Shown: piece by piece, positions 42,998 to 55,607 of the stretch | Layout of the letters: every line of letters starts with the position of its first letter | Numbering within the stretch: position 1 is the stretch's first letter | Assembly: GCF_030758935.1 (NCBI RefSeq) | Contig: NZ_CP132333.1 | Coordinates: forward strand, 3,038,992 to 3,102,991 | Source: Geothrix sp. PMB-07 | Lineage (GTDB): Bacteria > Acidobacteriota > Holophagae > Holophagales > Holophagaceae | Direction: 5' to 3' | Length of the DNA stretch: 64,000 nt | Made by a program: the position numbers and the translations under genes | The notes under the pieces: model-generated | What the model was told of the DNA's origin: nothing | The model's database searches: none | What the model saw: the letters and a program-made list of their open reading frames with translations, nothing else

Positions 42998-43027
42998 ACC
43001 AGGCACCACAGCATCCCTTCAAAGAGA

Positions 43028-43050
43028 AAGGCCCCGATGATCGGGGCCTT
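43028..43050. terminator. Hairpin terminator between convergent genes
   Basis: A perfect 10-bp stem, AAGGCCCCGA with loop TGA, ends in CCTT. It lies 31 bases after the acyl-CoA dehydrogenase stop and 25 bases before the end of the convergent FecR/DUF6600 gene, so it can serve both. The T-tract is short. Confidence 0.8.
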
Positions 43051-43074
43051 CTCATTCCTGTCGCGGTGATTCCT

Positions 43075-45045
43075 TCAGCGCCTGAACTCGTGGCTGAACA
43101 CGGACTTCTTTTCTTCCCTGGGTTTTTCGCGCGCAGGTTCGGGCCTGGGGGCGGGACGGCTCTCCCGGGCCGGTTCCGGCCTGGATTCGGGCCGGGGCGC
43201 GGGGCGGCTTTCGCGGGCCGGTTCGGAACGCGGAGGGTCGGGGCGGCGTTCTTCACGAGGGGCCCGGAAATTGAATTCCGGGGCACGCTCGCGGGGGGCG
43301 GGTTCGGGGCGCGGCGCTTCCGTCGGACGGGGCCGGTCCTCCATGCGTTCCCGGGCAGGAGGCGTGTCCGGGCGCCGATCCTGCATCCGGGGGCGGTCCT
43401 CCGGGCGCTGGATGGGCGGCGCGCCTTCCGGACGGCGCTCGGGCAGAGCCCTGGAGCGGTCGTCGGGCCTCTGAACAGGCTGCGGCGTTTCCAGGCGGCG
43501 ATCATCCGGGCGGCGCACCTCGGGCTGACGGTCCCGGCCCGTCGGCGCGTCGGGCCGTCGGGACTCAATGGGACGCACCTCCTGGCCCCGGGGCGCCTCG
43601 ACTCGCCCGCGTCGATCCTCGAAGGGGATGCGCTGGGAGCCAGGATTGGCCGCTCCGCCGGGGACGATCCGGCTGGGGCTCAGATCGCGCTGGATCACTC
43701 GTCCTGTGCTCATCTGGGCCTGCCGTTCATAGGCCTGCATGCGATCCCGGTTCACATCCCGCCGGAACACGGTTTCCATCTGGCTGGGATTGCGGAATTC
43801 CGCATGGGAAACCATGAGGGGGCTGCGCTGCCAGGGGGTGCCCAGGTCACGGCTGCCGCTGCGCCAGGTGGTGCCGCCGTTGCCGCCGCCGAAGGTGCGC
43901 AGGACGGTCGCATCCGAATAGATGTGTCGGTTCACGTTGATGATGTTGATGTTCGTCACGGCCACCACGTTCCAGGCATAGCCGCCGCCCCAGGCCCCAT
44001 AGCCCCAGTGGCAGGGCGTGTTGTAGTAGCCCAGGGGCGCCCAGCCGTAGTATCCGGGCGTGTGATGCCAGGCCACCCAGGCGGGACTGTAGTAGACGCC
44101 GGGGATCCAGCACCAGCCGATGCCCACACTCCAGTGCCAGCGGCCGTGGTGGTAGGCCACATAGGCCCAGGGCTCGTCGGAAACCCAGGTCATGCCGCCG
44201 GAATAGGGGGCCCAGCGGCCCTGGTAATAGGGGCGCCAATCCTCGGCCACCCCGTTGGGCTGCCACACCCAGCCAAACTCATCGGAATGGACCCAGCGTC
44301 CATGGTTGTCCAGTTCGTCGGCGTAGTAGCGGATTTCGGCGGGCACGCGGTCCCAGCTCTCGCCCCGCTGCACGATGACAGCGCGGTCGCTCCAGCGGTC
44401 GAAGTCGTCGCCGTCGTAGGTGTTGAAGCTGCGCACGCGGTCGAGCCCATCCTGCGGGCTGTAGACCGTCAGCCGCTCTCCGGCGGTGATGCGCGCCTCG
44501 TCGCGCTCATTGCTGAAGGTTACGCGGCCGCTGTGAACCTTCAGGCGCACCACTTTGTCGCGTTCAGCCTCGATGGTGAAACCGCCCTTGTCAAAGCAGG
44601 TGGCCGTGCCGGAAGGCGTGTCCACCCGGAAGCGGGCATCCGACTGGCCGCCCAGCAACACCCGGAGACGGCCGCTGTCGAGGCGGAGCAGCACCTGTTT
44701 CTCGCCCTTCTTGTCCGTGAACAAAGCCGCCACCGTGAACCGGGTGGCACCGGCGAAGGCCACGCGCGTGCCATCCCCCAGTTGCAGAACGCCACGGCCG
44801 CGGCTTTCCACGACATCGCCTTCGGCGATGGGCGTCCCGCGCGTCAGGGTTTCATCCAGATCCCCCTTGCGGATGTGAACCTCGCCTTCCAGGGCCCGCA
44901 CCATGGCGTAGCGTTCAGGCGCCTCGCCCTGGTAGGACTCGTCGGCGTCCGGGGCATCGGCGGGGGGCGCCTGCGGGCCCGCCATCAGAACGGCTGCGGG
45001 TACCAGCAGGGCGGCCAGTCGGGAGTGGGTCAAGGTCGAGATCAT
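43075..45045 (-). CDS. Secreted FecR-domain / DUF6600 protein with Arg/Pro-rich tail
   Basis: A 656-residue exported protein. A signal peptide (about 1-24) is followed by a FecR-like region (about 45-170, with EGDVVESRGRGVLQLGDG and LRLDSGRLRV). A DUF6600 segment rich in Trp and Tyr lies at about 220-350 (HGRWVHSDEFGWVWQP, WRPYYQGRWAPYSGG, GRWHWSVGIGWCWIPG). The last 200 or so residues are Arg/Pro/Glu repeats of the form RPDxRRxE. The function is unknown; the family is abundant in Acidobacteria and Bacteroidetes. GGAGGG precedes the ATG at 45045. The gene is downstream of tatD on the same strand. Confidence 0.8.
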   Translation of the reverse strand: MISTLTHSRLAALLVPAAVLMAGPQAPPADAPDADESYQGEAPERYAMVRALEGEVHIRKGDLDETLTRGTPIAEGDVVESRGRGVLQLGDGTRVAFAGATRFTVAALFTDKKGEKQVLLRLDSGRLRVLLGGQSDARFRVDTPSGTATCFDKGGFTIEAERDKVVRLKVHSGRVTFSNERDEARITAGERLTVYSPQDGLDRVRSFNTYDGDDFDRWSDRAVIVQRGESWDRVPAEIRYYADELDNHGRWVHSDEFGWVWQPNGVAEDWRPYYQGRWAPYSGGMTWVSDEPWAYVAYHHGRWHWSVGIGWCWIPGVYYSPAWVAWHHTPGYYGWAPLGYYNTPCHWGYGAWGGGYAWNVVAVTNINIINVNRHIYSDATVLRTFGGGNGGTTWRSGSRDLGTPWQRSPLMVSHAEFRNPSQMETVFRRDVNRDRMQAYERQAQMSTGRVIQRDLSPSRIVPGGAANPGSQRIPFEDRRGRVEAPRGQEVRPIESRRPDAPTGRDRQPEVRRPDDRRLETPQPVQRPDDRSRALPERRPEGAPPIQRPEDRPRMQDRRPDTPPARERMEDRPRPTEAPRPEPAPRERAPEFNFRAPREERRPDPPRSEPARESRPAPRPESRPEPARESRPAPRPEPAREKPREEKKSVFSHEFRR

Positions 45046-45136
45046 GGGCCCTCCGTGGATGTGGATGCCGTGTCCCAGGGGATCGGTTCCTGAAGGGGAG
45101 ACAGCCAGGGTCGTGCCAACTCGGACTTTACCCGGA

Positions 45137-45802
45137 TCACCCCTGGGGGAAGGGCGCCAGTGCCGTACCGGCCTTGCTGGGATCTCGCCGGATGCCCAGG
45201 GGCGCCAGCCTCGGCAGCAGCGCGATCCAGGGAATGGACCACTGCGCTGGAGAGCCCCGGTCCACGGTACCGGCCACCACTTCCAGGCGGTCAGGAAGGA
45301 AGCGAAGCCGCAGGTCCCGCCCTGCGGGCAAGGGCAGGTGCACGATTTCCGCTGTGGCGGGATGCACCACGGAAAGAAAGCCCTCCCCATCCTCGAGCAC
45401 CCAGAGGAGGCCCCTCAGAAAGGGGCGGAAGTCCTCCGCCGCCCACTGGAGCCCTCCCAGCCCTTGGCTGAGCGGAGAATCCACGGGGAAGCCCCAGTTT
45501 CCAGTCGGCACGGGCAAGGGGATGCCGCCATCCCTCCAGGCCCGGAGGGGGCGCCCAGGCAACCCCGTTTTCAAGCGGATGATGCCTCGGACATCCCGAA
45601 GGGTCAGGGTACCGTCCCCGCTGAGCCTGGCCTCAAGAGGTCCATTGGATCGCTGCACCGCCACGGGCGCATCCGCCTGAGGCCGGTCGCCACTTTGCCA
45701 TTCCAAAGGCGGCAGTCCCTCCCAGGCGAGGCGCGGGCGCCCCTGGGCCGAAAGGGTGGGCGCCAGCAGCGCCGTGCTCAGGAGGAGGGTGCCCAGCCGC
45801 AC
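45137..45802 (-). CDS. Secreted protein of unknown family
   Basis: A 221-residue protein with a clear signal peptide (MRLGTLLLSTALLAPTLSAQ). The rest is beta-rich with many Trp, Pro and Gly and no motif I recognise. The start overlaps the 3' end of tatD by 25 bases, so it is translationally coupled to it and followed by the FecR/DUF6600 gene in the same direction. I have no functional call. Confidence 0.6.
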   Translation of the reverse strand: MRLGTLLLSTALLAPTLSAQGRPRLAWEGLPPLEWQSGDRPQADAPVAVQRSNGPLEARLSGDGTLTLRDVRGIIRLKTGLPGRPLRAWRDGGIPLPVPTGNWGFPVDSPLSQGLGGLQWAAEDFRPFLRGLLWVLEDGEGFLSVVHPATAEIVHLPLPAGRDLRLRFLPDRLEVVAGTVDRGSPAQWSIPWIALLPRLAPLGIRRDPSKAGTALAPFPQG

Positions 45803-46557
45803 AGGGCCTCCAGATTCTGGGTGGTGAGTTGCGCCAGCTTGGCGGATGGAATGCCGCGAAGCCCGGCCACGGCTTCGGCGGTGAAGCGCACGAAGCCAGG
45901 CTCATTGGTCTTTCCCCGATAGGGCACCGGCGCCAGGAAGGGGGCGTCTGTTTCCACGAGGATGCGATCGGCGGGGGCCCAGGCGGCCACGTCGCGGATG
46001 GCGGCCGCGTTCTTGAAAGTGGTGATGCCGGAGAAACTCAGATAGAACCCCAGATCCAGGGCCCGCGCTGCAAAGGCCCGGTCCTCGCTGAAACAGTGGA
46101 TCATGCCGCGGACGCCATCGGCCCCCTCCTCTTCCAGCACCTGGAGTGTCGCTTCCGGGGCGGACCGGGTGTGGATCATAAGCGGCTTGCCCACAGCTTT
46201 GGCCAGACGGATCTGCGCCCGGAAGACCTCCTCCTGGATCTCTCTCGGGCTCAGGTCGTAATGCCAGTCGAGGCCAGTCTCCCCCACGAAACGCACGGCG
46301 GGGTCCCGCAGCAGGGCTTCGAGGGCCTCCCCCGTTTCCGGAGTCCAGCTTTTCGCGTCGTGCGGGTGCACCCCAAGGCTGGCCTGGACACCGGGGATCC
46401 GGTGCGCCATGGCCAGCACGGTCCGGGAATCGTCGAGATCCGTTCCCACCGCGATGAACCCGCTGACCCCCTCCGCCTTCGCCCGTACCAGGGTGGCCTC
46501 CACCTGGTCAGGGGCCAGGTAGGAACCGGTGAGGTGGCAGTGGGCGTCCACGAGCAT
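45778..46557 (-). CDS. tatD: TatD-family metal-dependent hydrolase
   Basis: A 259-residue TIM-barrel nuclease-type hydrolase. Metal ligands are visible as DAHCHL at the N-terminus, the Glu in VGETGLDWHYD, MIHTRSA, MIHCFSE and VETDAPFL. Length is normal. Family members cleave DNA 3'-5' and act in DNA repair or D-aminoacyl removal. It is the first gene of a three-gene minus-strand set and divergent from the MoaA-like gene. Confidence 0.92.
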   Translation of the reverse strand: MLVDAHCHLTGSYLAPDQVEATLVRAKAEGVSGFIAVGTDLDDSRTVLAMAHRIPGVQASLGVHPHDAKSWTPETGEALEALLRDPAVRFVGETGLDWHYDLSPREIQEEVFRAQIRLAKAVGKPLMIHTRSAPEATLQVLEEEGADGVRGMIHCFSEDRAFAARALDLGFYLSFSGITTFKNAAAIRDVAAWAPADRILVETDAPFLAPVPYRGKTNEPGFVRFTAEAVAGLRGIPSAKLAQLTTQNLEALCGWAPSS

Positions 46558-46746
46558 GGCCCCATGGTCCCACGAACCCTCACGACCTTTGAAATCGCCT
46601 GTCAGAACGCCTTCGCCAAGAGGCCGTCCCTGTGACCTCGGGCACGAACCCCCGCGGATGGAGGGGAATCCCCTTCATTCTGAATGGGATCGGAGCGTTC
46701 TGTGCCCCCCCCCTTCACCCCTCCACCCCCAAACCACCGGCCCCGC

Positions 46747-47754
46747 ATGCTGAGGGTGCGGGATGGACTGCGGGATGGATTGGGCGGCGACGTGACCTAC
46801 CTAAGGGTGTCGCTCACACGCCAGAGCAACCTGGCCCGCATCCGGGGCCACGTCGAAGGCGCTGAAGCCTCCCCCATCAAACCCATGAACCGGAACGAGA
46901 CGGTGCACCTGGTCAAGGTGTTCACCAGCCTTGGCGTCCGCAAAGTCCGTCTCACCGGCGGCGAGCCCCTGCTGCGCCGGGATCTGGAAACCATCGTGGC
47001 GGGCATCAGCCCGGAAGTCGAAGGGCGCGTCCACCTCACCACCAATGGCACCCTCCTGCCCCGCCGAGCCCGCGCCCTGGCGGATGCGGGGCTGCTGGGC
47101 GTAAACCTCAACCTGGATGCGGCGGACCGGGCCGCCTACAAGCGGATTACGGGCAAGGATGCCCTCGGCAAGGCGCTGGCGGGCCTGGATGCCGCGCGGA
47201 ACGCTGGGCTCCAGGTGAAACTGAACGCCACGGTGGTGCGCGGGTGGAACGAGGATCAGATCCTCCCCTTGGTCCATCTCGCCCAGCGGGAAGGCCTCGA
47301 CCTCCGCTTCATCGAGTGCATGCCCCGCCGGGGCGAAACCTGGGAACTGGATCGGTTCGTGGCCGCCGCGGAAATCCTGAGGATCATCCGCGAGGGCTTG
47401 GACATCGATCTCATCGAAGAAACGGCCCGCCACGCCGAGGATGGCCCCGCCCGGGTGTACCGCCTCTCCGGCCCCAACGTCATGGCCAGCGGCAAGGTGG
47501 GCATCATCTCCGCACAGCATTCCAATGCCTGCGACCGTTGCAACCGTGTGCGGCTCACCAGCCGCGGCGAGCTCAAGATCTGCCGCTTCGGGCAGCCGCA
47601 GGTGGATCTCCTGAAGCCCCTCCGCCAGCAGGCTCCCCAGGAGGTGCTCGTGCGGCTCATCCGCCAGGGCCTCTACGCCAAGCGCCCCTGCCACCCGCTG
47701 CAGCGGGACGGAAAACTGGAAGTGGTCCAGGGGCTGTGGCAGCTCGGAGGCTGA
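46747..47754 (+). CDS. MoaA-family protein lacking the radical-SAM cysteines
   Basis: A 335-residue homologue of GTP 3',8-cyclase. The N-terminal region aligns exactly with MoaA (YLRVSLT for YLRISVT), but the CX3CX2C motif that binds the SAM cluster is replaced by Ser27, Arg31 and Gly34 in SNLARIRG. Everything else is kept: RLTGGEPLLRRDL, TTNGTLL, the C-terminal substrate-cluster cysteines Cys262-Cys265-Cys279 with the RxR between, and the terminal GG. The gene has no frameshift or stop. It cannot perform the canonical cyclase reaction. It may bind GTP or another ligand, partner with a true MoaA, or be decaying. Confidence 0.8.
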   Translation: MLRVRDGLRDGLGGDVTYLRVSLTRQSNLARIRGHVEGAEASPIKPMNRNETVHLVKVFTSLGVRKVRLTGGEPLLRRDLETIVAGISPEVEGRVHLTTNGTLLPRRARALADAGLLGVNLNLDAADRAAYKRITGKDALGKALAGLDAARNAGLQVKLNATVVRGWNEDQILPLVHLAQREGLDLRFIECMPRRGETWELDRFVAAAEILRIIREGLDIDLIEETARHAEDGPARVYRLSGPNVMASGKVGIISAQHSNACDRCNRVRLTSRGELKICRFGQPQVDLLKPLRQQAPQEVLVRLIRQGLYAKRPCHPLQRDGKLEVVQGLWQLGG

Positions 47755-47771
47755 TCCGCCGCTGAGCGCCC

Positions 47772-48149
47772 TCAGCCCAGCTGCTTCCGCACCAGCCGCG
47801 CCACAGGCACCCCGCCCTTCAGATGGCTTTCCACGATCTCGGGCACATCCTCGGGCCTGACATGGGCGTACCACACGCCATCGGGGTACACGAGCACCGC
47901 AGGCCCGATGGCGCAGAAACCCACCGATCCGCAGGTGATGCACTGGATCGCGCCCTCGCGGTTGCCCTTGAAGAAGAGCAGCTGTTCTTCCGTCAGCCGG
48001 GCCTTGAAGGCCTCCAGCACGGCTTCGGAGCCATTGGCCGCGCAGCTCTTGGCGGTGCAGACCAGCACCTGCCGTTGCAGGGGATGGCGGATGATGGGAG
48101 ACAGGGAAGCGTCCTCGTCCGGCGCGGGAAGCGGGCGGTGCTCATCCAT
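47772..48149 (-). CDS. Thioredoxin-like [2Fe-2S] ferredoxin
   Basis: A 125-residue protein with the thioredoxin-like ferredoxin pattern: VLVCTAKSCAANGSEAV (first Cys pair) and CITCGSVGFCAIGPAVLVYPDG (second pair region), ending in a C-terminal helix. It would carry electrons or form part of a larger complex. GGAGG precedes the ATG at 48149; an upstream in-frame ATG at 48200 is less likely. It converges on the MoaA-like gene with 17 bases between. Confidence 0.85.
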   Translation of the reverse strand: MDEHRPLPAPDEDASLSPIIRHPLQRQVLVCTAKSCAANGSEAVLEAFKARLTEEQLLFFKGNREGAIQCITCGSVGFCAIGPAVLVYPDGVWYAHVRPEDVPEIVESHLKGGVPVARLVRKQLG

Positions 48150-48371
48150 GGCGTCCTCCAGGGAACCCACCCTATCAGACCAGCCTCCATTGGACTGCAC
48201 GGCTCGAAATTCATGCCAGGCAAAGGGCCGTTTGAATCTAAGAATCAGTCGACTTATGCCGTTGAGGTCGAGATCAGTGACCCTTTTGACGCCTGAGTGT
48301 GGTCAGCTTGAAGGCATGGGTCCCGGTTCCGGGGCCCGACCTTTTTTGCGCCACCTCCCACCGGAGCTTCC

Positions 48372-49556
48372 ATGAGCCATGACCAGGCAGGTTTCAACAC
48401 ACGACTCGTCCATGCGGGCATTCCCAAGGATGCCTACGGCAGCGTGGTGACGCCCATCTACCAGACCTCCACCTTCGCCTTCCGCAATGCCCAGGAGGGC
48501 GCCGACCGGTTCGCCGGCGCCGCCGACGGCTACATCTACACCCGCATCGGCAACCCCACCACTGTGGCCCTGGAAGAGAACGTGGCCTCCCTCGAGAACG
48601 GCTTCGGCGCCACGGCCATGGCCAGCGGCATGGGCGCGGTCACCACGATCTACCTGGCCCTGCTCAGCAGCGGCGACCACATGGTCAGCACCGACTCGGT
48701 CTACGGCCCCAGCCGGGGGCTCATGGAGAAGCACATGAGCCGCTTCGGGGTGGAATCCACCTATGTGGATACCTCCGACCTCGCCAACCTGCGGGCCGCC
48801 CTGAGGCCCAATACCAAGCTGATCTACATCGAAAGCCCCTCCAACCCCGCCATGTCTGTGACCGACATCGCCGCAGCCGCCGAGATCGCCCACGCCCACG
48901 GCGCCCTGCTGGTGGTGGACAACACCTTCGCCAGCCCCCACCTGCAGAAGCCCCTCGATCTGGGCGCGGACCTGGTGCTCCACTCCGTCACCAAGTTCAT
49001 CAATGGCCACGCCGACATCGTGGGCGGCGTGGTGGTCTCCAAGACCGAAGCCCTGCACAAGCAGATCCGGGCCATGCTGGTGAACATCGGCGCCAACATG
49101 GATCCCCACCAGGCCTGGCTGGTGAGCCGCGGCCTGAAGACGCTGGCGCTCCGCGTGGAGCGGGCCGAGGAGAACACCCGCAAAGTGGCCCCCTGGCTGG
49201 AGGCCCATCCGAAGGTGGCCTGGGTGCGCTACATCGGCCTGCCCAGCCATCCCCAGCATGAGCTCTGCAAGCGGCAGATGACCGGCTTCGGCTCCATGAT
49301 CTCCTTCGAGCTGAAGGGCGGCATGGAAGCCGGCCGCATCGCCATGGACCATGTGAAGCTGGCCGGACTGGCCGTGTCCCTGGGCGGCGTGGAAACCCTC
49401 GTCAGCCACCCCGCCTCCATGACCCACGCCAGCATGGGCCGCGAGGCGCGCCTGGCGGCGGGCATCACCGACGGCCTCGTGCGCCTCTCGGTGGGCATCG
49501 AGGACGTGGAAGACATCATCGCGGATCTGGATCAGGCCCTGGCCCAGATCCCCTGA
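48372..49556 (+). CDS. PLP-dependent trans-sulfuration enzyme (methionine/cystathionine gamma-lyase type)
   Basis: A 394-residue Cys/Met-metabolism PLP enzyme. The Schiff-base lysine is Lys208 in SVTKFINGH. The PLP-contact motifs YTRIGNPTT and ASGMGAVTT, and the YIESPSNP and DNTFASP segments, are all present. Canonical methionine gamma-lyase has YGCT with a catalytic Cys where this protein reads YGPS, so I would not name it megL. Cystathionine gamma-lyase, gamma-synthase or O-acetylhomoserine sulfhydrylase remain possible. Length is typical. It is a single gene with 220 bases upstream, room for its own promoter. Confidence 0.85.
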   Translation: MSHDQAGFNTRLVHAGIPKDAYGSVVTPIYQTSTFAFRNAQEGADRFAGAADGYIYTRIGNPTTVALEENVASLENGFGATAMASGMGAVTTIYLALLSSGDHMVSTDSVYGPSRGLMEKHMSRFGVESTYVDTSDLANLRAALRPNTKLIYIESPSNPAMSVTDIAAAAEIAHAHGALLVVDNTFASPHLQKPLDLGADLVLHSVTKFINGHADIVGGVVVSKTEALHKQIRAMLVNIGANMDPHQAWLVSRGLKTLALRVERAEENTRKVAPWLEAHPKVAWVRYIGLPSHPQHELCKRQMTGFGSMISFELKGGMEAGRIAMDHVKLAGLAVSLGGVETLVSHPASMTHASMGREARLAAGITDGLVRLSVGIEDVEDIIADLDQALAQIP

Positions 49557-49642
49557 TCTCCAGCAGACAGCCATAGGGTGGTGGCGGAAATCCCGCCAAC
49601 CACCTGCTGGACAAAGGCTTGTCCCGCGACCAGCATGGAGCC

Positions 49643-51022
49643 ATGCGTACCCCCATCACCATCCTCCTGGTGGATGACGAACCGGGCATCCGGCGGTCCC
49701 TGGGCGAAGCCCTGAAGGATGAGGGCTATCACGTGGTGAAGGCCGAGCGGGGTGAGCAGGCCATCGACCTGCTGCACAACCCCGACGGCGAGGGCATCCA
49801 GCTCGTGCTGCTGGACGTGTGGCTGCCGGGCATCGACGGCCTGGAAACCCTGAAGCAGGCCAAGCAGCTCCGGCCAGAGCTGCCGGTGGTGATGATCTCT
49901 GGCCACGCCAACATCGACACGGCCCTGCAGGCCACCAAGCTGGGCGCCTTTGATTTCCTTGAAAAGCCCATCGACCTGGACCGGCTGCTGCTGGTGGTGG
50001 GCAATGCCCTGCGCCAGTCCCGCCTGGAGCAGGAGAACCAGCGCCTGCTGGCCGAGGTGGAGGGCGGCCGCTTCTTCCTGGCCGACAGCCCCGCCATGAA
50101 ACGGCTCATGGCCGACGTGGCCCTGGTGGCGCCCACGGAAGGCCGCGTGCTGCTCACCGGCGAGAACGGCAGCGGCAAGGAGGAGGTGGCCCGCCTCATC
50201 CATCTGCAGAGCCCCCGGAAGGAAGCCCCCTTCGTCGAAGTGAACTGCGCCGCCATCCCCGAAGAACTCATCGAGAGCGAACTGTTCGGCCACCAGAAGG
50301 GCGCCTTCACCGGGGCCGTGCGCGACCAGAAGGGCAAGTTCCGCGAGGCCGACGGCGGCACCCTGTTCCTTGATGAAGTGGGCGACATGTCGCTGAAAAC
50401 CCAGGCCAAGGTACTGCGGGCCCTGCAGGAGGGCCGCGTGGAGCCCGTGGGCGGCGGCGGCGCCGTGGGCGTGGATGTGCGCGTCATCGCCGCCACCAAC
50501 AAGGATCTTCCGGCCGAGATCACCAAGGGCCGCTTCCGCGAGGATCTCTTCTTCCGCCTGGCCGTGGTGCCCCTGCGCCTGCCCGCCCTGCGCGAAAGGC
50601 CCGAGGACATCCTGCCCCTGGCCGAAGCCTTCATCACCCGCATCGCCAAGCAGTACGGCCGTCCGCCGCGGCATCTGGGCCCGGAGGCCAAGGACACCCT
50701 GCTGCGCCACGATTGGCCGGGCAACGTCCGTGAGCTGAAGAACCTCATGGAGCGCGCCGTCATTCTGGGCCGCAGCAGTGAGATTGGCCCCCGCGACCTG
50801 GGCCCCCTGGCCGCCCGCCACCTGGCCGAGCAGGATCCCTTCTCCTTCCCCGAATTCACCAACCTGAAAGACGCGAAGGACTGGTTTGAAAGCCAGTATC
50901 TGCAGCGCGAGATGAAGCTCCAGAACGGCAACATGACCCGCGTCGCCGAGCGCGTGGGCATGGACCGCTCCAACCTCTACAAGCGCCTCAAGACCCTGGG
51001 CATCGAGCCCAGGGAGAACTAG
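49643..51022 (+). CDS. NtrC-family sigma-54-dependent response regulator
   Basis: A 459-residue regulator. The receiver domain has Asp11-Asp12 and the phospho-acceptor Asp58 in LLDVWLPG. The AAA+ domain shows Walker A GENGSGKE, the sigma-54 contact loop GAFTGA and a DEVGDM Walker B. The C-terminal Fis-type helix-turn-helix is VAERVGMDRSNLYKRL. The layout is closest to NtrX. No sensor kinase is adjacent. The ATG at 49643 has GGAG just upstream; an in-frame TTG at 49619 is less likely. Confidence 0.93.
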   Translation: MRTPITILLVDDEPGIRRSLGEALKDEGYHVVKAERGEQAIDLLHNPDGEGIQLVLLDVWLPGIDGLETLKQAKQLRPELPVVMISGHANIDTALQATKLGAFDFLEKPIDLDRLLLVVGNALRQSRLEQENQRLLAEVEGGRFFLADSPAMKRLMADVALVAPTEGRVLLTGENGSGKEEVARLIHLQSPRKEAPFVEVNCAAIPEELIESELFGHQKGAFTGAVRDQKGKFREADGGTLFLDEVGDMSLKTQAKVLRALQEGRVEPVGGGGAVGVDVRVIAATNKDLPAEITKGRFREDLFFRLAVVPLRLPALRERPEDILPLAEAFITRIAKQYGRPPRHLGPEAKDTLLRHDWPGNVRELKNLMERAVILGRSSEIGPRDLGPLAARHLAEQDPFSFPEFTNLKDAKDWFESQYLQREMKLQNGNMTRVAERVGMDRSNLYKRLKTLGIEPREN

Positions 51023-51033
51023 GCGGTGGCGCC

Positions 51034-51435
51034 TTGAGTGAAAAGAAGTGGTTCAAGATCGGGGAGGCCGCCGCGTTGATCGGCGTGGGGCCCAAGGATC
51101 TGCGCTACTGGGAGGATGTCATCCCCGACATCAAACCCCGGCGCAGCAAGGGCAACCTCCGCTACTACCACGTGGACGAGCTGCCGCGCCTGCGCCGCAT
51201 CAAGGCTTGGCTGGCCGAAGGCCTCACCGTCGCCGACTGCGAAGAACTGCTGGCCCATGGCCACCTGGTGCAGCGCCTGGACCTCGGCCTCGAAGCCGAA
51301 GAACTGCCCGCGGCACCGGCCCAGAAGCCCAAGCCCACCATCCCCAGACTGCTGCGCACCAGCTCGGACCTGCAGCCCATTCTCAAATCCGTCCGCGCCC
51401 TCTACGAGCGCCTGTGCGCCGAACCCAAACCTTGA
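51034..51435 (+). CDS. MerR-family transcriptional regulator
   Basis: A 133-residue protein with an N-terminal MerR winged helix-turn-helix (WFKIGEAAALIGVGPKDLRYWE, then RRSKGNLRYYHVDELPRLRRI). The C-terminal part is short, Pro/Lys-rich and lacks metal-binding cysteines, so it resembles HspR/MlrA-like members rather than metal sensors. It must start at TTG 51034; no ATG or GTG is available in frame. It lies 11 bases after the NtrC-type regulator and is probably co-transcribed. Confidence 0.85.
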   Translation: MSEKKWFKIGEAAALIGVGPKDLRYWEDVIPDIKPRRSKGNLRYYHVDELPRLRRIKAWLAEGLTVADCEELLAHGHLVQRLDLGLEAEELPAAPAQKPKPTIPRLLRTSSDLQPILKSVRALYERLCAEPKP

Positions 51436-51470
51436 CCTAGAGCCCAACCCGGTCTACAGTCAAAGGTTCA

Positions 51471-51547
<77 letters not shown>

Positions 51548-51564
51548 AACATTCACCCCACACG

Positions 51565-51590
51565 AAAAGGACCCTTCACCGGGTCCTTTT
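51565..51590 (+). terminator. Rho-independent terminator after tRNA-Pro
   Basis: A perfect 10-bp stem AAAAGGACCC, with loop TTCACC, ends in GGGTCCTTTT, 18 bases after the tRNA. The pyrimidine-rich tail follows. This defines the end of host transcription before the prophage. Confidence 0.88.
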
Positions 51591-51601
51591 CCTTACCTCC
51601 A

Positions 51602-51625
51602 TCGAAGCCATGCGAGAGGCTTCGA
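51602..51625. repeat. 8-bp inverted repeat between tRNA-Pro and prophage
   Basis: TCGAAGCC (51602-51609) and its complement GGCTTCGA (51618-51625) with an 8-base loop, just beyond the tRNA terminator. No function can be assigned. Confidence 0.5.
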
Positions 51626-51691
51626 GCCTCCGAGTGGGATCGCGGAGACAGCGCGGGGCGCTGTCAGTGTGGGGAGGCGACTGCTTTGTCA

Positions 51692-51850
51692 CTGGCACCT
51701 GAATTGGCGCCAAAGCTTAGATCCATATTTGGCGCGGATTTGGAAGCGGCGAGAACCCCCAGGGGACTTGCACTTGGTTTGGCGCAGTTTTGCGGTTAGT
51801 TGCAAAACGTGGCGCCATCTTGCACCTGGTTTGGCGTCAATCTGGCGCTG
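51692..51850. repeat. Candidate transposase end-binding repeats (left end)
   Basis: Three 19-bp copies related to CTTGCACCTGGTTTGGCGT occur at 51692-51710, 51767-51785 and 51819-51837; the last two differ at two positions and the first matches at 15 of 19. Further TGGCGC cores are at 51730, 51810 and 51843. Transposable phages carry several transposase sites at each end, and this cluster lies where the left end is expected. The 51548-51858 stretch otherwise holds only the terminator and one hairpin. Confidence 0.55.
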
Positions 51851-51858
51851 GGCGTGGG

Positions 51859-52590
51859 TTACCTGCGTTTGGGTTTAGAGGGTAGGTCGCCAAGGATGCG
51901 TTCATACCAACAAACGCGGCCTATGACGAGATCCTGCACGGGCACACCATCCAGCGGAACCGGCTCTAGCGGATATGCCGCCTCGTTTTCTGAGATCAAG
52001 TTCATGTAACGCCCATCAGGTGATATGTGGACCCGCTTGATTCGGGCCTCCTGAGTGTCTGGGGTGGTACGCACAAGATGCAAGGCCCCTTTGCGTGGCT
52101 CCACGCGCAATGGAAGCGCCGTATTCACCAGCACCATGTCTCCAGGCTGGATGGTCGGACTCATAGAGTCACCCTGAACGCGGGCGGCGAATAAGGTGGA
52201 CTCAGACCCAGCCCCGCACTGGCGAAGCACTTCCTGGATTAAGCCGCGCCGGAAAGGCTGGCGGTCGGCATTCGGGGCAAGGTCATGGATTTCCCCCGAA
52301 GGCCCACATGAGGGCAACCCATCAAGGACAGGGAGCATGAGTGCGGAGCCCGAGCCAGTGTTCTGCAGCTGCGCCTGCATTGGTTCCTCTCCCAACATCA
52401 ACCATGCAAAGCGAATCCCATATACATACTCAATCGCCATGGCGGCTAAAGGGGTGACCTCGGCGGATCCGGTTTCCCATCGAGAAATCGCAGCCTTGGA
52501 AACCCCAATCCGCAAGCCGAAGTCCTCTTGTTGGAGCCCAGTTGCCGCCCGGACGTGGCGCAACCGCCCTGCAGGTGTGGATGGGAGCAT
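51859..52590 (-). CDS. Prophage repressor (XRE domain plus S24 peptidase)
   Basis: A 243-residue LexA/CI-type repressor. An N-terminal helix-turn-helix lies at about 8-60 (LQQEDFGLRIGVSKAAISRWE). The C-terminal S24 domain has the catalytic pair Ser142 (QGDSMSPTIQPGD) and Lys185 (ARIKRV). A Cys-Gly at about 105-106 is a possible self-cleavage site. It should keep the lytic promoter silent and respond to RecA. It is divergent from the Ner-like gene with 101 bases between, containing the operators. Confidence 0.9.
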   Translation of the reverse strand: MLPSTPAGRLRHVRAATGLQQEDFGLRIGVSKAAISRWETGSAEVTPLAAMAIEYVYGIRFAWLMLGEEPMQAQLQNTGSGSALMLPVLDGLPSCGPSGEIHDLAPNADRQPFRRGLIQEVLRQCGAGSESTLFAARVQGDSMSPTIQPGDMVLVNTALPLRVEPRKGALHLVRTTPDTQEARIKRVHISPDGRYMNLISENEAAYPLEPVPLDGVPVQDLVIGRVCWYERILGDLPSKPKRR

Positions 52591-52619
52591 CGAAGTCTCG
52601 ATCGGAGAAAAAAATAGGG

Positions 52620-52672
52620 TTGACTGTTCTCGATTCGGGAATCAGTATTTCTCCTGTTCTCGCTTAGAGAAC
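52620..52672 (+). promoter_or_regulatory. Prophage early promoter and operator sites
   Basis: TTGACT (52620-52625) with CAGTAT 17 bases later (52643-52648) is a candidate early promoter. The 17-bp inverted repeat GTTCTC-5-GAGAAC lies at 52656-52672, and another GTTCTC half-site at 52626 is exactly 30 bases from it, inside the promoter spacer. A related TCTCGATCGGAGA sits near 52596. This suits repressor or Ner binding. Confidence 0.6.
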
Positions 52673-52691
52673 CAAGCAGCGGAGAAGAAAG

Positions 52692-53024
52692 ATGCTACCC
52701 GAAAAACCCTCACGCAAGCGGGTCGCCTACGGCCTGTCTGCCAATGCAAAGTCGGTGGTAGAAACGGCCTCAAGTATCCAGGGCCTGATGGCTGACGGGA
52801 TTAATTTGGACGGCAGCCTGAAGCCAGCAGCCATTCGGGCACTTCTGAAGCTGAAAGGCCAGGGCATCAGAGTTCTAGCCGAGAGCAATGGTTATAGCGA
52901 TGCCTACTTCCACCAGGTGATCGAGCGAATTCGTCGAGATGTAGACGTGGAAGACATCTTGGCGAGATGCATCGGTCTCGAAGCTGACCGCATTTGGGGT
53001 CGCCAGTCTTCGAACGTGGCCTGA
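52692..53024 (+). CDS. Ner-like DNA-binding protein
   Basis: A 110-residue protein whose C-terminal 60 residues (IRALLKLKGQGIRVLAESNGYSD, then ARCIGLEADRIWGR) match the Ner/Nlp/SfsB type, where a helix-turn-helix is followed by a LGxxPxxIWPSR-like tail. In Mu, Ner is the first gene of the early transcript and turns down early and repressor transcription. Position, direction and size agree. The N-terminal 45 residues are an extension relative to Mu Ner. Confidence 0.75.
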   Translation: MLPEKPSRKRVAYGLSANAKSVVETASSIQGLMADGINLDGSLKPAAIRALLKLKGQGIRVLAESNGYSDAYFHQVIERIRRDVDVEDILARCIGLEADRIWGRQSSNVA

Positions 53025-53034
53025 GGTGGCGGCC

Positions 53035-53382
53035 ATGATCGACACTTCCGCCGCGAAACGATTCTGTGACATCCGGTCTGAACTCGGGAAAAGCGCCCGC
53101 CAGATCAGTCGTGAGCTTGGTATCGGAGGCTCCGTCTATAGCAACTGGGAAAGTGGCCAGGCCCCGCCACGCAAACCCAATGCCCTGGCCATCCAGGCTC
53201 TGTATGGCTATCGCTGGGAATGGGTGATGACGGGACAGGAGCCCAAGTGGGTTGAAGGGGCAGCGCCCATTTCCCTTGCTATGAAAGCCGTCACCACCAA
53301 GCTAAACACCCTCATCGGCACCCTAGGAGCCCTGTCGGGCCAGATGTGCGCATTGGCAGCGCAGATCAAGGAGCTGAAATGA
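53035..53382 (+). CDS. Small XRE-type helix-turn-helix protein
   Basis: A 115-residue protein. The helix-turn-helix spans about 10-60 (FCDIRSELGKSARQISRELG, SVYSNWESGQAPP). The end is hydrophobic-helical (NTLIGTLGALSGQMCALAAQ). GAGGTGG sits upstream of the ATG at 53035; a GTG at 53026 is possible. It overlaps the transposase gene by four bases (ATGA), so it is coupled to transposase expression. It may be an extra early regulator. Confidence 0.7.
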   Translation: MIDTSAAKRFCDIRSELGKSARQISRELGIGGSVYSNWESGQAPPRKPNALAIQALYGYRWEWVMTGQEPKWVEGAAPISLAMKAVTTKLNTLIGTLGALSGQMCALAAQIKELK

Positions 53383-55607
53383 CCCGGAAGCGGCGGCTTA
53401 ACCCAGTTGTCGCGATCCCGGAGGTTGCACCGCTGGTTGTCGCGACTGAAGGCGAATCGCGGCAACCCAAAATCCAGGCGCGACAACCCAAAGAAACCAG
53501 CACAGACGGCGACTATTCCAGGACGGGAATACCTAGCCAAGTTGTTGCGATTGTCGCGAGTCCCGCGTGCTTCACGGTGGCTGAGGCCGCCGAACTGGCT
53601 GGAGTTTCTAAACAGGCTGCACTGAAGCGCCTATCGAGCCTCGGCTTGCTTCAGGACCGCATTTCTGAATCTGGCCCAAACAAAGGACGCAAGGAGAAGG
53701 TTGTCGCATACAGCGCTCTCTTCGGGCCCTATCCAGATGCTGCCCGAGTGTTGGCCGCCCGCGAGAAGGCCGCGGCTGCACTGTCTTTGCCGCCCGCGCC
53801 CACCATAGCTCCGGCATCCGATCTCGCCGCTATCTCCAGCATGAAGAGCTGGCAACGGCAACGAATGGATGCTCGCTTGGCCATTCTTCGCTATGTGGAC
53901 CACCTGGTTGAAGAGAGCCGGGTCAGCCGAGATAGGGCGCTGAATCGCCTCTTTGGCGAAGTCGAGTCAGGGGCTCTTCCAGAGAACCTGAAAGCCCTCC
54001 TTCCCTTGGCCAATGCACGTTCTGGCCAGTCGGGTGATCGAACACTTTCACGCAGAACGTTCCAGCGCTGGGCTGCTGATGCCAAACAGGGCATGGATCG
54101 GCTGGCACCGAAGGCCTGCGACCGCTCGATGCCAGCCTGGCTTCCACAACTACTGGAGATCTACCGCCAGCCCCAGAAACCATCCCTAAGCTGGGCGGTC
54201 CAAACGCTGGTCGGACAACTGCCAGCTGGAGCCTTGGTGCCCAGCTATGACAGCGCCCGCAGGTGGCTCCTCAAGGTCGGCGCGGTAGACCGTGAACGCG
54301 GCAGGATGCTGCCCCGCGAACTTAAGACCATCAAGCCCTTCCGGCGCCGCGAGAAGCCGGAATTCCCGTTCGACGTGTTGACCGCCGATGGCCATACGTT
54401 TGATGCGGAAATCGCCCATCCCGAGCACGGACGTCCCTTCCGGCCCGAACTGACGATGGTTGCCGACGTTGCGACCAATCGCATCGTCGGGTGGTCGGCC
54501 TGGGAGAAGGAAAGCACCTGGTCGGTCATGGATGCATTCCGCATGGCCGTGCTCACGGGCGGTGTCCCGCTGATCTTCTATACGGATAACGGCCCAGGCT
54601 ACCGCAATGAACGCCTGGAGGCTTTGAAGGCCCGCCTGGGCTATGAACACCACTTCAGCATTCCCTACAACTCGCAGGCGCGGGGCGTGATCGAACACCT
54701 TCAGAAGACGGTCTGGGTGGATCTGGCCGCCAAAGCGTTTGCAACCTATGTCGGTGCCTCCATGGATCGCCAGGCCCGACAAATCGTCTTCAAGGCCACC
54801 CGTCAGGGCCAGCCGGTTCTGCCCTCTTGGCAGGCCTTTGTGGCGTTTGTTGAGCAGGCCGTGGCTGCACATAACCAGAGGGCTAGCAAGGCCTGCCCAA
54901 AGGCGCTTGATTCCGAAACCGGGCGCCAGCGAAGGCTGAGCCCTGACCAAACGTGGGCCAAGGCGCAGGAATTGGGTTGGAAGCCAGAGGGCCTGCCAAT
55001 CAGCTTGGATGAGTTCCGGCCAGAGGAACTGCGCCAGGTCAGGCGTGGGGAAATCCAACTCTTCGGCAATACCTACTTCAACCGAGAGCTAGCCGAGCTG
55101 CATGGAGAAGAAGTCTGTGTGGCCTTCGACATCCACGATGCCTCACGAGTCTGGGTCAGCCGAAAGGATGGAACCTTCATCTGCGAGGCCGGCTTCGAGT
55201 CCAACAAGGCAGCGTATTTCCCGAAGCCCTACGTGGATAGCCTGCGTGAAAAGCGCCAAGAAGGACAGCGCCAGCGCCTGGAGCAAAGGGCCCAGCGGGT
55301 GCTTGGCGATGCGGCCCCTGAACCTCTGGCCATCCAGGCCCTGACTCCCGAGATGGTGGCGGCCTCTGATGCCCAGCTGCGCAAGCTAGGGCTGCCTGAA
55401 GATCCCGTGGGCACTGAGTCTCAGACCGAAGAGTCCACTGGTGAAGCTCGGCGCCCAGCCTTCAAGTCAGACCGCGACTACTACTGCTGGATCCTCGATA
55501 ACCCCGACCTGGCCGACGCAGACGAAACCGCAATGGTTCAGCGCCGCCTGCGTCAAGACCCCTTGTTCTCAACCCTGCTGGGCCGCGATGACGCGGCTTC
55601 GGCGTGA
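53379..55607 (+). CDS. Mu-type transposase (MuA family)
   Basis: A 742-residue phage transposase. After an N-terminal segment, a helix-turn-helix region lies at about 65-90 (FTVAEAAELAGVSKQAALKRL). The RNase-H-fold catalytic core has Asp337 (LTADGHTFD), Asp403 (FYTDNGPGY) and Glu439 (GVIEHLQ), a D,D(35)E set. The beta-barrel domain and a C-terminal region that would contact the MuB-like ATPase follow. The ATG at 53379 overlaps the previous stop and has AAGGAG upstream. The first 60 codons contain an array of a 10-bp DNA motif, described separately. Confidence 0.92.
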   Translation: MTRKRRLNPVVAIPEVAPLVVATEGESRQPKIQARQPKETSTDGDYSRTGIPSQVVAIVASPACFTVAEAAELAGVSKQAALKRLSSLGLLQDRISESGPNKGRKEKVVAYSALFGPYPDAARVLAAREKAAAALSLPPAPTIAPASDLAAISSMKSWQRQRMDARLAILRYVDHLVEESRVSRDRALNRLFGEVESGALPENLKALLPLANARSGQSGDRTLSRRTFQRWAADAKQGMDRLAPKACDRSMPAWLPQLLEIYRQPQKPSLSWAVQTLVGQLPAGALVPSYDSARRWLLKVGAVDRERGRMLPRELKTIKPFRRREKPEFPFDVLTADGHTFDAEIAHPEHGRPFRPELTMVADVATNRIVGWSAWEKESTWSVMDAFRMAVLTGGVPLIFYTDNGPGYRNERLEALKARLGYEHHFSIPYNSQARGVIEHLQKTVWVDLAAKAFATYVGASMDRQARQIVFKATRQGQPVLPSWQAFVAFVEQAVAAHNQRASKACPKALDSETGRQRRLSPDQTWAKAQELGWKPEGLPISLDEFRPEELRQVRRGEIQLFGNTYFNRELAELHGEEVCVAFDIHDASRVWVSRKDGTFICEAGFESNKAAYFPKPYVDSLREKRQEGQRQRLEQRAQRVLGDAAPEPLAIQALTPEMVAASDAQLRKLGLPEDPVGTESQTEESTGEARRPAFKSDRDYYCWILDNPDLADADETAMVQRRLRQDPLFSTLLGRDDAASA
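53406..53559. repeat. Array of GTTGTCGCGA motifs inside the transposase gene
   Basis: Six copies in 154 bp: direct at 53406-53415 and 53436-53445 (exact, 30 bases apart); inverted at 53457-53466 and 53478-53487 (one mismatch each, 21 apart); direct at 53541-53550 and 53550-53559 (one mismatch each). It encodes the repeated VVAI/VVAT and SRQP/ARQP peptides. Regular spacing and both orientations suggest a protein-binding array rather than a protein repeat. Confidence 0.7.

Follow-up and report, generated by a model that had tools for sequence, protein, structure and literature searches.

A maintained radical-SAM pseudoenzyme of the MoaA family in Geothrix

The window considered here is the whole stretch of 64,000 nucleotides that was analysed (G000:C1:3038992-3102991) from the genome of Geothrix sp. 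PMB-07 (G000), which is available as a single contig of 4.24 Mb with gyrA split over both ends, as fits a circular chromosome. It carries a gene for a homologue of MoaA (GTP 3',8-cyclase), hereafter MoaA2, flanked by two conserved neighbours, a TatD-like hydrolase and a thioredoxin-like [2Fe-2S] ferredoxin (Table 1). The TatD name, like those of the cytochrome and porin mentioned below, was given by sequence reading.

Table 1. Features of the moaA2 locus in the window
Feature	Position	Strand	Evidence
TatD-like hydrolase (name from sequence reading)	45778..46557	-	ORF; synteny; conserved neighbour
Putative Shine-Dalgarno GGAG	46692..46695	+	same place in 12/12 family members compared
MoaA2 gene (proposed pseudo-GTP-cyclase)	46702..47754	+	ORF; GGAG and GTG start; MoaA profile 240.5 bits; 350 aa
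Former CX3CX2C motif, now S27-N-L-A-R31-I-R-G34	46825..46848	+	sequence, alignment
GGEP motif (71-74), retained	46957..46968	+	sequence, alignment
New Cys191	47317..47319	+	Phe in 35/35 full-length triad-bearing orthologues; common to G028
Auxiliary-cluster ligands C262, C265, C279, with R267/R269 between	47530..47583	+	sequence, alignment
Terminal Gly-Gly (G334-G335)	47746..47751	+	sequence, alignment
Thioredoxin-like [2Fe-2S] ferredoxin	47772..48200	-	PF01257 on 47775-48152; synteny; conserved neighbour

Read from the ATG at 46747, as in an earlier sequence-only reading, the frame (46747-47754) is open, of ordinary length and MoaA-like across residues 8-321, where it matches TIGR02666 with an E-value of 2.4e-71. 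The homology and the uninterrupted frame claimed by that reading were borne out, but not the start, for which GTG 46702 is the likelier codon: besides the conserved GGAG, a GTG lies 45 bases upstream of the ATG in 11 of the 12 MoaA2 family members compared, window copy included, the remaining one (G016) having CTG.

According to the alignment, the three cysteines of the CX3CX2C motif are replaced at exactly the expected positions, as the same reading had proposed, by S27 (AGC, 46825-46827), R31 (CGC, 46837-46839) and G34 (GGC, 46846-46848). Alternative cysteines for the SAM cluster were ruled out, the whole cysteine set of the protein being C191, C262, C265, C279 and C315. The loss exceeds the cysteines: Tyr33, Pro36 and Ser122, which other MoaA proteins conserve and which presumably lie at the SAM site, are replaced too. 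The elements said to be retained (the GGEP motif, C262/C265/C279, the RxR formed by R267 and R269, and the final GG) are all present. The new Cys191 is on a predicted strand (185-191) that also holds Arg187.

A second, intact moaA, for which a search had been advised, was found elsewhere in the same genome (C1:433828-434817; 374 bits, above the curated TIGR02666 cut-off), and the canonical MoaA that it encodes lacks none of CX3CX2C, the auxiliary cysteines and GG.

MoaA2 is present in 40 of the 47 genomes of the genus (GTDB genus of Geothrix), 39 of them with a match of at least 55% identity and the fortieth (G030) with a fragment that is ended by a contig edge and has the motif intact. The triad is kept in 36 of the 40 copies, namely 35 full-length ones of normal length and the G030 fragment, so the loss of the cysteines is derived. 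Four copies are altered: those of the window genome and G028, without all three cysteines, that of G004, without two, and that of G040, which is shortened and keeps the triad. The G028 protein is 90% identical to the window copy, and full cysteine loss is known from these two genomes only. The orthologue comparison recommended in the sequence-only reading thus gave a divided answer, as the sister species shares the loss and dN/dS is far from one, but 36 of the 40 orthologues keep the cysteines. MoaA2 was not found in G009, G011, G019, G027, G037, G043 and G046, three of which are less than 90% complete. It looks genus-specific, as no match above 44% identity was found in 30 genomes of other genera of the family; the 30 close database matches, 54-89% identical to the protein, carry the names Geothrix, Holophagaceae or Acidobacteria. 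Both G009 and G037 lack MoaA2 yet have the molybdoenzyme operon, which indicates that MoaA2 is dispensable in the genus.

In order to define the residues lost and kept, we retained those found both in no fewer than 34 of the 35 intact MoaA2 and in 12 or more of 14 further MoaA sequences, the latter picked by hand, which gave 77 residues (a printed total of 81 included four columns gapped outside the clade). Fifteen of the 77 are replaced in both the window genome and G028 (R14, C27, C31, Y33, C34, P36, S122, F131, V143, V162, N197, P226, F261, L280 and M330), and within columns 27-36 this affects five of the six listed conserved residues. Kept in these two genomes and in G004 are R20, K66, R68, K158, R187, C262, C265, R267, R269, C279 and GG. 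Among them, R267 and R269 align with the last two of Arg17/266/268 (a MoaA mutant, according to the title of PDB 2fb2), R20 was assigned by its place ahead of the motif, and K66, R68, K158 and R187, conserved with other MoaA, are likely GTP contacts; most of the SAM- and GTP-site roles named here are likewise putative. A Fisher test of SAM-site against GTP-site residues is descriptive only, the residues having been picked once the alignment had been viewed and partly on general background about MoaA. The auxiliary-cluster site has itself changed, since F261 (beside C262) has become Ala and L280 (beside C279) Arg; both proteins also have a new insertion of four residues at 243-246. In G004 the motif reads CNLVSAYS, with two of three cysteines lost and C27 and Y33 kept, and G040 shows the reverse pattern, with the triad kept and K66, K158 and R269 replaced. 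The G040 copy (G040:C1:700958-701791; L044, L066) has about 291 residues versus 333, owing to in-frame shortening mainly around 190-260.

The species phylogeny was used to place these events. On an rpoB tree, the window genome and G028 pair, with G037 next (rpoB is missing for G004), and in a tree of seven concatenated proteins G004 groups with G035, G021 and G045 (100/99). The AU test rejects joining G004 to the window genome and G028 (p 6.5e-4, or 8.6e-5 with G037 added), and three neighbour genes alone leave its position unresolved. Because the species tree separates G004 from this pair, the losses are best read as independent, and the separate G004 lineage, with its GTP and auxiliary-cluster residues kept, forms a partial parallel. 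The tree of MoaA2 itself joins the window genome and G028 with G004 and G040 (support 84); we rejected this grouping as long-branch attraction, the species tree excluding it for G004 and both the rpoB and seven-protein trees placing G040 elsewhere.

Selection was estimated using a home-made branch codon maximum likelihood model, stopped at 40 iterations, on 22 of the 39 full copies (332 codons) with a species-like topology. Omega was 0.062 for the background, 0.207 for the stem leading to the window genome and G028, 0.051 for these two tips, 0.122 for G004 and 0.153 for G040; with 17 taxa and another tree, the values were 0.056 (background), 0.247 (stem), 0.049 (tips) and 0.107 (G004). On the two tips omega = 1 is rejected (2dlnL 217) and the difference from the background is not significant (p 0.51). 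The stem differs from the background (p 7e-6), its omega being a rough value given the great length of this branch, 2.9 neutral changes per codon. For G004 and G040 omega = 1 is also rejected (2dlnL 78.5 and 68.3), over whole branches that span the time before and after the change. Pairwise NG86 estimates agree in outline: dN 0.053 and dS 0.467 between the window copy and G028 (ratio 0.114; 93 synonymous and 38 non-synonymous changes, no stop), 0.060-0.142 for 11 hand-picked triad-bearing pairs, and 0.35-0.38 across the loss (window copy or G028 versus G044). For the canonical MoaA of this pair of genomes the ratio is about 0.17, a value that includes about ten codons upstream of its likely start. 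Change was therefore raised on the stem and followed by renewed constraint as strong as that on intact orthologues, and the impression that the gene is maintained, first gained from its open frame, is now backed by an omega of about 0.05 after the loss.

In its usual setting the gene order is TatD-like (-), MoaA2 (+), mobA, [2Fe-2S] ferredoxin (-), cytochrome c, porin, molybdopterin oxidoreductase, a 4Fe-4S ferredoxin-type subunit, NrfD and a NarJ/TorD-type chaperone, with extra genes in some genomes. A MobA-like gene (mobA, PF12804) is found at all 29 triad-bearing loci tabulated, and the molybdopterin oxidoreductase lies downstream in 21 of them, several others being on short contigs. From the window locus everything from mobA through the chaperone is gone, the [2Fe-2S] ferredoxin excepted. 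At the G028 locus the cytochrome and porin remain, and after them come a multihaem cytochrome (PF11783) and cytochrome b561; that of G004 keeps mobA and also has a PF11783 cytochrome. Each of these multihaem cytochromes is accompanied by a small b-type cytochrome of the membrane (assigned to b561 by Pfam in G028; L069:11877-14111, L060:370-2614), possibly a replacement of the respiratory module where the molybdenum oxidoreductase operon was lost. In the window genome and G028, mobA has moved off the moaA2 locus and now adjoins mobB (Pfam-tested in the former, by eye in the latter), and in G037 it adjoins genes that resemble, by eye, a molybdate transporter (L136:6934-8039, L137:6733-7849 and L138:6946-10229 for these mobA surroundings). 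The molybdenum-cofactor (Moco) pathway is also represented in the window genome by moaC and by four matches of 25-33% identity to a molybdopterin oxidoreductase. An Rfam scan of window positions 43000-52000 for a Moco riboswitch or other RNA near moaA2 gave a tRNA above threshold and three matches far below it.

The neighbouring molybdopterin oxidoreductase is missing from each of the four genomes with an altered copy (Fisher p 0.004 across 39 genomes, uncorrected for relatedness), and in the single-contig genome of G040 neither the locus mobA nor the oxidoreductase has a match. An oxidoreductase match of at least 85% identity is absent from seven of the 35 genomes with a full-length intact MoaA2, six of the seven being less than 90% complete. 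Strict coupling was ruled out by these seven genomes and by G009 and G037, which have the enzyme without MoaA2; the data are suggestive of a link between MoaA2 and the molybdoenzyme that is not strict.

The TIGR02666 score of the window protein lies under the curated cut-off of 284.05, and the triad-bearing MoaA2 of G044, the sole one scanned, reaches 322.5. An AlphaFold model has a mean pLDDT of 79.6 and a pTM of 0.82, with values below 50 at residues 1-5, 31-41 (the former cluster loop), 230-232 and 332-335, and its best match among solved structures is MoaA (1tv7; TM 0.76, rmsd 4.3). The protein is thus like MoaA over nearly its full length in sequence and predicted fold, as well as in GGEP, the auxiliary CX2CX13C, RxR and GG, and unlike it in having no CX3CX2C, Tyr33 or Ser122 and in its score below the profile cut-off. 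Like the triad-bearing MoaA2 of the genus (55-64% identity), it is encoded with the TatD-like gene on one side and the [2Fe-2S] ferredoxin on the other; these relatives keep CX3CX2C and, at all 29 loci tabulated, a mobA, which is absent from the locus in both genomes with full loss. By contrast, the pseudo-SAM/SPASM family TIGR04347 has a radical-SAM fold but is a different family and not a MoaA, its weak match to the window protein (62.8 bits) being far below the cut-off of 525.

That MoaA2 of the window is a maintained radical-SAM pseudoenzyme, its catalytic site lost, its predicted fold kept and its sequence under purifying selection after the loss, is well supported. The claim that it cannot start the 5'-deoxyadenosyl radical reaction stands, the ligands of the SAM cluster being gone. 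Beyond this, we favour, with a probability of roughly 0.55, the reading that it is a maintained pseudo-GTP-cyclase which holds GTP on its single cluster and serves as partner or regulator in Moco synthesis. On the stem to the window genome and G028, where amino-acid change was raised, a genus-specific second MoaA that normally has mobA after it was stripped of its SAM/[4Fe-4S] ligands before the two species parted, and selection has since held it as strictly as the intact orthologues; the protein would still fold as MoaA, bind GTP or the cyclised GTP product at the C-terminal [4Fe-4S] cluster, perform no radical chemistry and act on Moco synthesis by pairing or competing with the canonical MoaA. 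In MoaA, as reviewed in PMC5352715, the C-terminal cluster binds GTP via the purine and the N-terminal one binds SAM; with a GTP site and no SAM site, MoaA2 would be expected to take up GTP with no radical chemistry following. That it is strongly constrained in a genome which also encodes an intact MoaA suggests a role as partner, competitor or sensor, and the regulatory, partner or GTP-binding role put forward in the sequence-only reading would fit the retained residues. An electron-donor role is also possible, as radical-SAM enzymes can hand electrons between molecules according to PMC10470005. More tentatively, Moco synthesis in this clade might have gained in MoaA2 a regulatory subunit of its own, which lacks the SAM site and tunes the canonical enzyme by holding GTP on its lone cluster; the genus would have come near to this state two or more times, through erasure of the SAM site with the GTP site spared.

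Catalytically dead paralogues kept with an active one are described in the cases of the prozyme of AdoMet decarboxylase (PMC5201418) and a dead deoxyhypusine synthase (PMC3663545); both activate their enzyme, and both are trypanosomatid and belong to enzymes unrelated to MoaA. Among the matches listed from the open-access PubMed Central literature, we recognised no description of a cysteine-less MoaA. A MoaA with the substrate cluster alone would be a natural separation of the two clusters found in a textbook radical-SAM enzyme, so that the GTP-binding half could be studied by itself, and a maintained dead paralogue suggests an unrecognised layer of control on Moco synthesis. Annotation of the window protein by similarity only, as GTP 3',8-cyclase, would be wrong.

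The strongest competitor, which we consider possible though less probable than a role in Moco synthesis, is that MoaA2 was repurposed outside this pathway, its single C-terminal cluster serving another reaction or the sensing of redox state, iron or nucleotides, perhaps with Cys191 as an added ligand. The departure of mobA and the molybdenum oxidoreductase operon from the window locus, the elevated stem omega, and the new cysteine and insertion common to both species would all suit such a change of function, but the likely GTP-binding Arg/Lys set and the GG tail are all kept, and it is not obvious why a protein working without GTP would require them. Decay of a redundant moaA copy, caught ahead of its frameshifts, seems unlikely. 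Another moaA in the genus, the seven genomes in which MoaA2 was not found, the internally shortened G040 copy and the association of altered copies with absence of the oxidoreductase speak for it; the conserved start and GGAG, and an omega since the loss as low as that of intact copies, disfavour it for the clade of the window, and G040, the most decay-like, keeps the triad and rejects omega = 1 over its whole branch. It is similarly improbable that the protein takes part in an active cyclase with the SAM cluster supplied in trans, as the pseudo-subunit of a mixed dimer with canonical MoaA giving the GTP site or GG tail. MoaA crystallises as a dimer and its GG tail reportedly acts in trans, and MoaA2 keeps both GG and the likely GTP residues, but the canonical MoaA of this genome is itself complete, so help from MoaA2 is not needed. 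Finally, an assembly or sequencing error, judged unlikely from the outset, is excluded by the identical SNLARIRG block in the separately assembled G028, and constraint from an antisense gene, to which a long minus-strand ORF (46801-47943) and one minus frame with a low ratio (0.187) might point, by the distribution of G000-G028 differences over codon positions 1/2/3 of the plus frame (23/14/94, hence 94 of 131 at third positions), the frame of the long ORF, which shares codon boundaries with MoaA2, having a dN/dS of 1.9 and the low-ratio frame 4 and 3 stops.

Further along the window, positions 51471-55607 hold a tRNA (51471-51544) followed by repressor-like ORFs and a transposase-like ORF of 753 residues (by eye), with weaker codon bias; the region resembles a mobile element or a Mu-like phage beside the tRNA.
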